From Candidatus Sumerlaeia bacterium (GTDB lineage Bacteria > Sumerlaeota > Sumerlaeia > SLMS01 > JAHLLQ01): a DNA stretch of 64,000 bases. Numbering within the stretch: position 1 is the stretch's first letter; each line of letters opens with the position of its first letter. Positions 16,328-58,289 of the stretch are shown here, piece after piece. The translations under genes and the position numbers were made by a program. The stretch lies in contig JAHCAW010000019.1 in assembly GCA_019634695.1 (NCBI GenBank), positions 1 through 64,000 on the forward strand, given 5' to 3'. The notes under the pieces are model-generated. The model was given only the letters and a program-made list of their open reading frames with translations, was not told the origin of the DNA and ran no database searches.

Positions 16328-17179
16328 ATGCGTCGTATCCTGGGAACATTCCTGGTTGGTCTGGTTGCACTGAGTGCGTCGGCCGAGGTGACGATTACTC
16401 CGACCGTTCTGGCCACCTACGACGTGCCCGATGGCGAGATCGTCGAGGAGGGGAGTTTCGATGCTTCGGGCAACCTGCTCCTGCGACTTCGCTCCAGTTC
16501 GACGGCGCACAGTCGCTTCAACCCGGACTTGGAGAGTTTCGAGGTTGTAGCCGGCTGGCTCTCGGGGTCGCCTTACTGGTGCGTCAGTTCGGACTTGGGA
16601 CTCGTCTCCAGCACCACGATCCACACGGGCTGGGCGGACTTCTGTCCTGACGCCAGTTTCCACGCAACCGGCTGGGGCGGGTCCGACTTTTCGTACGGCA
16701 CGTCGAGCTTCCTGAGCTACCATCGCGAGGTCTGGGGCGTCGCCAGCGGGCCCGGCGCCCAGCTTGTGGCGCTTGCCGGGCGCGTGGGAAACCCCTGCGA
16801 GCCTTCCGCTCCAACTCTCGAGGTGGCGCGCATCGTCGCGGGGCAGGACGACATGGCCGAGGAAACCGTGCTGACCGCACTGCAAGGCACGGGATCGGAG
16901 TGGGGCTTCTCACCGTACACCCAACTGGACTACGACAGCACCCATGAGTTCTACTGGGTTTGCTTCGACGATCCCGATGACAACCAGCGGTACTTCGTGG
17001 CGTTCGACGCATCGGGGGTGCGCAGGTGCCGGGTGCTGGCGCCGGGGGATTCCTCGCTGCTGGTTCACTGGAAGGACCGACAGTATTTCATCCTCGGCGA
17101 CAGCAGCATCCTGACGCTGGTCGAGCTGGACCTGAGCGCCTCCGTGCGGAGCTGGGTCTTGTTCGAAGAGGGCCGCTGA
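16328..17179 (+). CDS. Secreted protein of unknown function
   Basis: A 283-residue protein with a signal peptide (MRRILGTFLVGLVALSASA, cleavage likely after ASA). The mature part is rich in beta strands. It has four Cys in the central region (YWCVSSDLG, WADFCPDAS, VGNPCEPSA, YWVCFDDPDD), which could form disulfides. The pattern of Asp/Gly turns (DASGNLLLR, FDASGVRRC) suggests a beta-propeller-like or lectin-like fold, but I recognise no family. It precedes the MEMO gene by 147 bp on the same strand. Its role is unknown. Confidence 0.7.
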   Translation: MRRILGTFLVGLVALSASAEVTITPTVLATYDVPDGEIVEEGSFDASGNLLLRLRSSSTAHSRFNPDLESFEVVAGWLSGSPYWCVSSDLGLVSSTTIHTGWADFCPDASFHATGWGGSDFSYGTSSFLSYHREVWGVASGPGAQLVALAGRVGNPCEPSAPTLEVARIVAGQDDMAEETVLTALQGTGSEWGFSPYTQLDYDSTHEFYWVCFDDPDDNQRYFVAFDASGVRRCRVLAPGDSSLLVHWKDRQYFILGDSSILTLVELDLSASVRSWVLFEEGR

Positions 17180-52083: not shown

Positions 52084-52773
52084 TCAGTCAATCTGGAACA
52101 GGTCGAGTTCGACGGGGACGCTCAGGGGGCTGGACATGTCGTTCAGCACGTTGCGGGAGCTGGACATGTTCCAACTGGTGGCGGTGGTGTTTCCCGTTCC
52201 GTTCGGAATCTGGTCGAAGGCACCGTGCTCGCCCGCGTTGTCGCCCGAGACGAAGAAGGCAACACGAATGTCCTGAACGCCGCCGATTCCGAGAGTTGCC
52301 AGAGGCAAGCGCGCCTCGATGAAGCTCGAACTGACGTTGGACTCGGTAGCACCCAAGTCCGAGCCGGAGCCTGTGCTCCAATCCGAGCCATTCCAAGTGC
52401 GGAGTTCGCGCCAGCCGTTGTTGTTCTCGCCGCGCAGCACGAAGTTGGGGGCTTCCGGGTAGTTGAAATCGATCTGGCGTCCCCACGGCTCGGCGGTGTT
52501 GCCACCGGTTCCGGAGTCCGTGCTGATCGCGAAACCGAAGTTCTGCCACGAGGAATTCGCGCAGGCGGCGCCGAGATACAGATAAGTGGCGTCGTGGGTG
52601 ACGTACAGGGCCGTGGCATCCACGCCCGCCCATCCGTCGCTGCCCGGGTCCGTGGCGACCGGCGCCCCCCACACACCCTCGCCGTCGAATGTGCCGTCGA
52701 TCGTGGGGGTGCCGGCGAAGGCCACACCGGAAACTGCAAGGAATCCTGCGAAAGCACACAGCTTCTTCATCAT
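52084..52773 (-). CDS. Secreted CBM9-like protein
   Basis: A 229-residue secreted protein. Signal peptide MMKKLCAFAGFLAVSGVAFA. The mature part is one beta-sandwich domain that starts TPTIDGTFDGEGVWGAPVAT and has ALYVTHDATYLYLGAACANS, the form of family 9 carbohydrate-binding-like (DUF1083-type) domains, and a closing QDIRVAFFVSGDN. It has no linked catalytic domain. It likely binds sugars or acts as a surface protein. The start ATG at 52,773 is nine bases after AGGAGG, which decides it over the second ATG. It is opposite in direction to the amylase gene. Confidence 0.8.
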   Translation of the reverse strand: MMKKLCAFAGFLAVSGVAFAGTPTIDGTFDGEGVWGAPVATDPGSDGWAGVDATALYVTHDATYLYLGAACANSSWQNFGFAISTDSGTGGNTAEPWGRQIDFNYPEAPNFVLRGENNNGWRELRTWNGSDWSTGSGSDLGATESNVSSSFIEARLPLATLGIGGVQDIRVAFFVSGDNAGEHGAFDQIPNGTGNTTATSWNMSSSRNVLNDMSSPLSVPVELDLFQID

Positions 52774-53115
52774 GGTCTCGTACCTCCTGAATGTCCAGTG
52801 CCTGTGGCACCCGGTGCTTTGTCCCCGAATACTGAGTCCCGAGCAGCATCCATAAAACTTTGCTGGATACCGTGGCATGCCTCCAAGCGAGGATGACGGT
52901 GCGAGGATTGGCCGCTCCCATGCCGAAATCAAGGTGAATCGGAGGCCCGATTCTTCCACTCTGAACAACTTTTTATCACAAAACTACGACTCGCCGTGTC
53001 CGCTTTTCCCACGAAGCTCACAATTGACCTCCCCCTGCCGGTGGACCACCCTGCGCTCCTTCCTGCCGGTCCCCACCGTCAAAGCCGGCGACAGCCTGTC
53101 ATCCGGGAGTCCGCT
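52774..53115. other. Divergent intergenic region between the CBM9-like and amylase genes
   Basis: 342 bp that must hold the promoters of both genes. The AT-rich patch near 52,960-52,990 (ACTTTTTATCACAAAACTAC) is the only clear deviation from the G+C-rich background and may be where they sit, but no well-spaced -35/-10 pair was found. A TTGACC occurs at 53,024-53,029 without a good -10. The minus-strand AGGAGG is the ribosome site of the CBM9-like gene. Confidence 0.45.
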
Positions 53116-54990: not shown

Positions 54991-55287
54991 GACGTACGTA
55001 CAACCATTGTGTGCTGGGGACTTGCGCGCTATTGCGCCTGCGGCTCGTTAGAGCATGGCGGCGAAGGTGACCGGTTGCTCGCGCCAGTATCCACTCGGAA
55101 GTTTCTTGGTTTAATGACAGGCTTTTATTCTCCGCTGCATCGTCCTTCCCGGATTAAACGAGTTGACCATCGACTGGCGACGTGGCCGTATCATCCTATC
55201 TTGCCACGGTTCTCTGGGCCTGACGATGCCGACCCCATGGGCATCGCACAGGCAGGACACCAACAACGCGGAAGGAGACCCCCCGCC
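54991..55287. other. Intergenic region before the beta-helix gene
   Basis: 297 bp with a lower G+C patch around 55,090-55,190. TTGACC at about 55,162 and TATCAT at about 55,188 have a 20-base gap, too long for a good promoter. A GGAAGGAG box ahead of the ATG at 55,288 is the ribosome site. No RNA gene or terminator was recognised. Confidence 0.45.
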
Positions 55288-58200
55288 ATGAGGAAACTGC
55301 TTCTTCAGGACTGAGCCTGTCGGTGCTCGCATCGTCGGCTCATGCGGCAACCATCACGGTCGGCCAGACTGGCGCCGACCACACGACGATTGCGGCCGCG
55401 CTCGCGGTCGCCGTCGCGAACGACGTCGTCCAGATCATCGACGACGCCGTTTACGACGAGGCGATCAGCATCACCGTGCCGCTGACCCTGGAAGGCACGG
55501 GCTTGAACCGTCCGGTGATCGCGGCCCGCCCGGGCCCGACGCAGGTCACGGGCGACACGGGCGGCACCGACGGTCTGGTCGTCCAACTGACCACGCCCGG
55601 CAACGTCACGCTGCGCAACTTGATCATCATCCCGTCCAAGACGACCACCCCGACGGACGATCTGGTCCGCAGCGGCGGCACCAACGCGATCAACCTGCTG
55701 ATGGAAGACGTTGTCGTCACCTCCAACAACGGCGCCGACGCGCCGGTGACCACCACGGGCCTGACGGAGGTCGATCTGACCGGCGCCACCCAGACGGGCG
55801 ACGACGGCGTGTTCCTCACCGGGACGAACTCGACCTTCACGCTGCGCCGCACGGTGATCTCGCATCACGCCAACGCCGGCGCGGGCCGCGACGGCCTGGT
55901 CTGCTCGGGCGCCACCAACCAGTACTTCATCGAGGAAGGCTGCGTCTTCTCCTACATGGGCCGTCTGGGTATCCAGGCCAACGGCGGCACGTTCGACATC
56001 AACTCCGGCGCCGGCACACGGGTGCGCGTCATCGGCAACAAGGGCTTCGCGGGCATCTGGTACGCGGGCGCCCAGGCAACGACGCCGCGCGCGATCAACG
56101 GATGCGACATCGTCCACAACGTCGGCACGGTGGCCGCACAGGGCTGGGGCGTCGAGAACCAGAGCCGCGGCACCACGACCGGCACGTTCTCGAACATGCG
56201 CATCTGGGGCAACGGCGGCCAGGGCTTCCTGATCGGCTCCGTCGGCACCGCTGACACGGTGCTCAACAACGTGACCATCGGAGGAAACCAGCGCGCGGCT
56301 CTCGAAGTCGCCGCGGCGGTTTCGCCGGCCGTCAACGCCGGCAACATCACGATCAACGACAGCATCCTGGCCGGAAACGGCGATCTCCTGAGTGCCACCA
56401 ACGTGATCCGCCACAACGGCGCAGGCACGATGACGATCAACAACAGCGCCATCATCACCGAGGGTCGTCTGGCCTTCGCCACCCCGGTGATCGATGGGAC
56501 TGGCACCGTTGTCCAGAACAACGTCATCAACGGCGATCCGGAGTTCACCAGTGGCTCCTTCACGAACGCTGCGTTCCTTGAAGTGCGGAATCCGGCTTAT
56601 GTCGGAGCCGGCTCCGGCGCCTCCGATCTTGTCGGTGGCGGAAGCCTTGGCGCCGCAGAGCCCGTCTATGTTTGGGACGTCGCCGGCAGCGGCGACTTCC
56701 AGGCCCCCGCGAGCTGGAGCCCCGCACGCAACACGCCCGCGATCACCGACCGCCTCGTCTTCGACGGCATCGCAACTGCAGGCGCCATCACCGCGACCAA
56801 CCTGCCCGGCGGCGCGAGCACTCAGGAAATCGGCAGGCTGATCCTTCGCAATGGGGCTGACGTGACCATCACGACCGCTACGGAAGGTGCGCTGGCCCAA
56901 CCCAACCTGCGGCCCAACGAAGACGGCACCGTCGGCTATGGCATGTCCATTTCGGCGGACTCCAAGCTGACCTTCGGCGGCACTGTTGGTGTCATGATCC
57001 GTACCGGGTATCCGACGGGTCCGACAGTTCCTTCCGTCAAAGCCCGCGTCGACGGTAGCATCCGCTTCACCTCGTCGGCCGCTATGGCCGGCGTCGCTCA
57101 TCGGCTTGTTGCAAGCTCGATCGACGGCATCGTCTTCGAGGACGGTTCCTCGTTCGAGTTCGCCGCCCGCGGCGGCAGTTGGGGCTTCCCCTTCAGCAGC
57201 GTCGGCCGCGTGCGCTTCAACAACGGCTCGGCGTTCTACCAAGGTGGAACGGCAGCGGCCGTTTCCGAAGGCACCGGCTCGAATCCGTTCAACAACAATG
57301 ACGCCCGCATGTTCTGCGAACCCGACAGCCTCTTCTACAACTGGACGTCGGTGATCTCGACCAGTGGTGCGGCCTTCGGCCGCTCGTACGGCAACCTGAC
57401 CCTCGACAACCGCGGCGCCGCGGCCACTTGGGGCGGTGCGTCGCCTTGGGAGATCCAGGGCGACCTGCTCTTCAAGTCCACGATGGCAGCCGCTTATCAG
57501 TTCGCGGCCGCGGGCTCGACCGGCGATCCGCAGCTCACCGTTGGCGGTGACTGGACCATCGAAAACGGTGGCCGATACAACGACCTGTACACGGGCGCGA
57601 GCAACAGCATCCTGATCGCCGGCAACGTCGATTGGGCCGGCACCCTCATCAACATCGCCGCGGGCAGCACGCGCATCTACGGCTTCAACGGCACCGCGCC
57701 GCAGACCGTCTCGATCCCCGCAACCGTCACGCTCAACGGCATCTCGGTCGACAACGCCGCAGGCGTGACGATCACGGGCGACCTCAACGTCCGCAACGTC
57801 GTGAACATGATCAACGGCGACATCACCGGCAACCTGATCCTGGGCGCCACCGCCGTCGTGAACCGCAGCCTGAACGCCGCCGTCACCGGCGCGCGCACCC
57901 TGCCGATCGGCTCGACGCCGGTGACGTTCAACATCACCAGCGCCGGCACCGGCACGGGCACCGTCTCGGGTTCGACCACGGCGAGTGCGGGCGCCAGCCT
58001 GCCCGCCCTGACCACGGGCATCAACCGCACGTGGGACCTGACGGCCACCGGCATCTCGGGCTACACCGCGACGCTGACGTTTACCTACCTCGACGGCGAC
58101 CTTGGTGCCGCCAACGAAGCCTCGCTCCGCGCGGCCCGCTTCAATGGCTCCACTTGGGACGTCTTCCCGAGCTCGACCGTCGACACCGGCACCAACACGG

Positions 58201-58289
58201 TCACCGTCACCGGCGTCACCGAGCTGTCGACCTGGACGCTCGTCGACCAGTCGGCCAACGTCCGCGAGTGGTCGATCCTGAACCACTGA
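55288..58289 (+). CDS. Large secreted beta-helix-type protein with a frameshift in its signal peptide
   Basis: The ATG at 55,288, behind GGAAGGAG, reads MRKLLLQD then TGA. The main frame enters at about 55,308, so the predicted N terminus is MRKLLLQ plus GLSLSVLASSAHAATI, a good signal peptide with AHA cleavage. One missing G in CAGGA restores it. The 988-residue main frame (from GTG 55,323) is a repetitive right-handed beta-helix: NGTISINNS-like runs of TLRNLIIIP, NTFDINSGAGTRVRV, GGEnRRAALEVA-like units and late TVTLNGISVDNAAGVTITGD. It resembles polymorphic surface proteins and autotransporter passengers, but no beta-barrel or PEP-CTERM signal is seen. If the frameshift is real, export fails. 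Confidence 0.78.

Follow-up and report, generated by a model that had tools for sequence, protein, structure and literature searches.

We analyzed a stretch of 64,000 nucleotides of DNA (the window), which makes up most of a 64,365-base contig in a metagenome-assembled genome of an uncultured Sumerlaeota bacterium, derived from environmental DNA (G000; 4.35 Mb in 127 contigs, 86% complete). A scan of genome contigs with the large protein brought up no relative; a scan with the Ffh protein gave 69 loci, and the two best of these, at 72% identity, are from Candidatus Sumerlaeia and Candidatus Sumerlaeota. The window carries a gene for a large protein whose beginning is written in two reading frames (Table 1). 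The ATG at 55288–55290 opens a frame of eight codons, MRKLLLQD, that ends with a TGA at 55312–55314, and the first-pass annotation, which had described a start with a good ribosome site and a stop after eight codons, is confirmed on this point. The second frame, whose register differs from that of the ATG by one step, is open from 55224 to 58289, that is, over 1021 codons from stop to stop without an internal stop. No good start lies within this large frame itself. Its earliest ATG, GTG or TTG codon is the GTG at 55323, which gives 988 amino acids and begins within the hydrophobic part of the signal peptide, and apart from it the frame holds only two near-start codons from 55224 to 55350, both CTG. 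Past the stop codon lies a terminator-like hairpin; four such hairpins were found on both strands of the region, against 1.7 expected, and this one has the longest stem.

Table 1 Features of the split gene, and proteins with the same type of C-terminal tail
Feature	Position	Strand	Remarks
Ribosome-binding site, GGAAGGAG	55270–55277	+	10 nt before the ATG; from the sequence and a pattern scan
Gene start: ATG and eight codons (MRKLLLQD), positively charged n-region of the signal peptide, then TGA	55288–55314	+	
Second part of the signal peptide, read one step away in the other frame: hydrophobic part plus AHA cleavage motif	55308–55346	+	Upstream limit uncertain
N-terminal domain of beta-helix type, family of about 450 amino acids	55347–56700	+	End approximate; from family matches
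C-terminal module, 40% identity to a gene on contig G000:C84	56676–58250	+	Query residues 452–976; boundaries approximate
C-terminal tail ANVREWSILNH and stop; type common to other exported proteins	58254–58289	+	
Terminator-like hairpin past the stop codon	58319–58348	+	13 pairs
Tailed proteins in the window	58254–58289; 16328–17179; 52084–52968	+; +; -	Tail scan
Tailed proteins at other loci	L036, L042, L163, L179, L180, L181, L062, L068		
Tailed proteins at other loci (rest)	L070, L153, L158, L016, L022, L023, L026, L028		

All three features of a Sec export signal, as judged by eye, are present at this locus and are split over the two frames: the charged start is encoded in the frame of the ATG, and the hydrophobic core and the AxA cleavage motif are encoded in the large frame. 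From 31 homologous loci, we examined 20 5′ ends (that of the window and 19 others), chosen for their match to the N-terminal part of the protein. In 18 of the 19 others the signal peptide, again assessed by eye, lies in one frame, one of these starting with GTG; the 19th is truncated by the end of its contig. The cleavage site of the window protein, AHA/ATITV, aligns with that of a paralog in its own genome, ASA/ATLTV (the slash marks the cleavage). With two frames one step apart here and single-frame signal peptides in the relatives, the earlier proposal of a one-step break of frame within the signal peptide of a large exported protein holds. The exact place of the length change within the first eight codons cannot be fixed from the sequence, so that the position at CAGGA chosen by the first-pass annotation is one possibility only.

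We also considered how often such a start would be met by chance. A pattern consisting of an ATG, a ribosome site and a signal-peptide-like beginning, which we wrote ourselves once the site was known, occurs 40 times in 1,485,324 strand-bases of the genome. This corresponds to about 0.001 per 40 nt, a chance figure that is too high because the count takes in true gene starts. Since the pattern is so rare, a start at the right distance from the large frame is unlikely to have been placed there by accident, and the ATG start and the large frame probably form one split export gene.

Translation might instead start elsewhere, at GTG 55323 or at a CTG just upstream, in which case the eight codons would constitute a leader peptide and the protein would stay intracellular. 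GTG is a permitted start codon, and the one at 55323 lies in the large frame, but a protein begun there would start inside the signal peptide, have no positive charge and be deprived of the conserved export signal while bearing a C-terminal tail of the kind found on exported proteins. Moreover, the good ribosome site is that of ATG 55288. We thus regard a start elsewhere as very unlikely. A gene caller will probably place the start of the protein at GTG 55323 and miss its export.

It is also conceivable that programmed ribosomal frameshifting joins the two frames and makes the gene work in its present form. In favor of this, the frame past the break is conserved and undamaged, and a shift by one step would suffice. 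However, inspection of the eight codons revealed no X-XXY-YYZ heptamer, and 18 of the 19 other 5′ ends run in one continuous frame (the 19th being the one cut off). Since the relatives have a single frame, no conserved recoding is seen, and we consider programmed frameshifting extremely improbable.

The part of the gene downstream of the break is well preserved. Of 31 positions that do not vary across at least seven other members of the family, the window protein keeps 29, which is within the range of intact members. In the same comparison, near full-length members mostly keep 29 out of 29 to 33, two distant members keep 29 of 45 and 26 of 37, and a fragment (L010) keeps 12 of 29. As the large frame is free of stops and retains the invariant positions, its sequence does not give the impression of an old pseudogene. 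Elsewhere in the family, two of the four homologous matches in one relative (L007 and L024 in G013) hold one in-frame TGA each, which could be a break, an error or another reading of TGA.

The first-pass annotation had described the large frame as a 988-residue beta-helix protein. Its length stands, counted from GTG 55323, and the beta-helix assignment is supported by way of homologs only. Four of ten family members match the Pfam Beta_helix model at E ≤ 1 (best 2e-7); the window protein is not among them, and alone it matched no Pfam or NCBIfam model. The family profile gave a weak match over about 70 residues to pectinesterase chains (best E 3e-4), and a single-sequence fold of the window protein, with a pLDDT of 35, was useless. 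The family may be compared with right-handed beta-helix surface or secreted proteins on account of its Beta_helix matches and its pectinesterase-like profile match, whereas the window protein differs from them in matching no model by itself and in carrying a second module and a tail. The 988-residue protein joins its two modules in the region of 56676, and each module matches a separate gene of the same genome (on contigs C45 and C84). The first-part family of about 450 residues also occurs without the second module, both in the own-genome paralog and in a relative of the same genus (G001). We sought an orthologous start in the latter genome, which contains the amylase neighbor along with a gene homologous to the small tailed one at 52084–52968. 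The big gene is not adjacent to them, and there is therefore no orthologous start to compare.

Large surface proteins are known to be switched on and off, and the first-pass annotation had accordingly raised the possibility of a phase-variable allele. Phase variation would mean that the signal-peptide stretch changes its length at a high rate and that the protein is switched on and off, as in the case of Neisseria opa, for which phase variation via CTCTT repeats in the leader-peptide region is described (PMC3960869). The likeness consists in a frame change within the stretch encoding a surface protein's signal peptide, and the difference is that the window gene has no repeat tract. Both the kind of gene and the place are right, as switching would be expected to act at the beginning of a large surface-type protein. 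In addition, the ATG of one relative (L005) is followed directly by seven consecutive A, so that a slippery tract at such a position is not unknown in the family, and variation in the population is still conceivable given that a single genome is at hand. The site itself, however, has no tandem array over it, the best unit within the eight codons being CTTCTT in two copies. A run of six C at 55279–55284 lies between the ribosome site and the ATG, where a change of length would alter the spacing but not the frame. All repeats between 54990 and 55450, inverted ones included, are short or imperfect, and neither a hypermutable repeat tract nor an invertible segment was found at the site. The 5′ region gave one match in its own assembled genome (86% complete), with no second copy that could act as a silent copy for recombination, and the genomes searched include no second one of the same species. 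The phase-variable reading is therefore not borne out, there being neither a repeat tract at the site nor a second copy in the assembled genome, and we judge it most unlikely.

We then asked how often this assembly shows frame breaks. A frame-aware hidden Markov scan, the first version of which was run on 343 kb, covered 742,662 bases, including 525,876 bases of long open frames. It flagged 48 frame switches, 44 of which resembled gene boundaries in that the first frame stopped within 61 nt. The other four comprise two interior breaks of recognizable genes (L170 and L178) and two switches in L168. An interior flag was assigned to seven of the 48 switches; five of them, with a stop within 43 nt, were set aside as presumed gene ends, leaving L170 near 13487 and L178 near 5848. 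L170 (about 13136–14301 on contig G000:C2) is a glycosyltransferase gene split mid-gene, whose parts match the Pfam N- and C-terminal glycosyltransferase domains in different frames. L178 (about 4539–6454 on contig G000:C50) is a transposase-like gene with an apparent interior frame change; its first part matches a transposase DDE domain (E 6e-7), its second part matched no family, and on our own reading the two would represent one gene. The scan detected 50 of 80 simulated one-base deletions, and 31 of the 80 passed the interior filter, so that a few more breaks are to be expected. The two switches in L168 (contig G000:C1), at positions 283 and 917, are 634 bases apart and have far stops and short flanks; they possibly delimit a stretch that is read in another frame.

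With two other frame-split genes in 743 kb, such breaks form a background in this assembly that is low but real, and the break at 55288 therefore needs no special cause. That the other two affect a glycosyltransferase and a transposase-like gene indicates that breaks arise here without any logic of surface proteins. The window gene shares with the ordinary frame-broken genes and assembly errors of metagenome-assembled genomes one step of frame in a gene that is conserved and otherwise undamaged. We found no difference from them, its location in a signal peptide standing out only because a break is readily noticed there.

Taken together, the locus very probably represents a normal gene for an exported protein with one unprogrammed, recent change of length in the signal-peptide stretch, caused by a mutation or an assembly error. 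An ordinary event of this sort, and not a switch, is the most likely explanation. The gene would encode an exported, two-module protein of beta-helix type, and the length change, which we infer to be recent from the state of the downstream frame, would have hit the stretch that encodes the signal peptide. On the sequence as written, ribosomes would begin at ATG 55288 and halt after eight codons, so that the protein would presumably be neither made nor exported. As to the cause, an error of the metagenome assembly has close to an even chance, and a genuine mutation that abolished the function of the gene in the sampled cells is only slightly less likely. Both causes, which the first-pass annotation had also named, fit the sequence, and they are separable only with reads. 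The frame break itself carries little weight beyond annotation; if it is a true population variant, it would provide an example of the loss of a surface protein in an uncultured phylum.

The tail of the protein could matter more than the break. The tails come in two types, xVxxWx[LIM] and PVELDxF, with a few more residues after the motif, and the window protein, ending in ANVREWSILNH, belongs to the first. We scanned the 503 predicted genes in the examined stretches of G000 for xVxxWx[LIM] or VELDxF near the end and found ten tailed proteins. Nine of the ten begin with a signal peptide, the exception being the product of the broken gene; the tail type of that gene is thus otherwise found on signal-peptide proteins, which agrees with its being a gene for an exported protein. 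Expressed over all genes, the tail occurs in 9 of 123 with a signal peptide versus 1 of 380 others (Fisher p 2e-5). The corresponding counts in G001 are 6 of 67 versus 2 of 198 (p 0.004). They are weaker: two of the eight tailed proteins lack a signal peptide, and among the six that have it, one (L058, 6226–8760) looks like a false call. The p values are optimistic because the patterns were drawn up after tails had been seen under looser rules, and the window gene itself is among the matches; the rule for signal peptides was also our own. When every frame of at least 40 codons in the two genomes is counted, 55 of 13,386 tails match the patterns, and single matches are therefore not significant.

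What the tail does was approached by comparison with known sorting systems. The sorting-signal models of NCBIfam did not match any of ten tailed proteins compared with them. An identity as PEP-CTERM cargo of an exosortase is not supported, as no exosortase was found in G000 (86% complete) or in four relatives of its genus and family; the enzyme is present in 4 of the 39 genomes searched. The type IX marker SprA was detected in none of the 39 genomes, yet the same search was also silent in all 14 control genomes. Our literature search returned nothing that joins PVEL with C-terminal sorting or Sumerlaeota with a sorting signal, and the passages on secretion, surface proteins, adhesion and C-termini in a paper on Sumerlaeota (PMC8092238) contain nothing on such tails. 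We tentatively suggest, as a possibility that is still doubtful, that the tail is an unnamed sorting or anchoring tag of exported Sumerlaeota proteins, handled by a system other than exosortase and perhaps other than type IX, and that the broken gene keeps this tag while its N-terminal signal is broken. If so, some of the proteins that this candidate phylum exports may be recognizable by the tail, which may also point to an undescribed sorting route. The tail merits a study of its own.

Two further observations concern the ends and domains of these proteins. Among the tailed proteins compared with NCBIfam, L042 has a choice-of-anchor Q domain that scores above its NCBIfam cut-off. The own-genome paralog (ending in SNWLLYN) and a carboxypeptidase of the window (DIWAVE) have similar ends that fall outside the pattern. 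Tails like that of the window protein recur on homologs from other genomes of the class, with the endings SVSDWSIY, GVKDWKMY and AVADWSIY.
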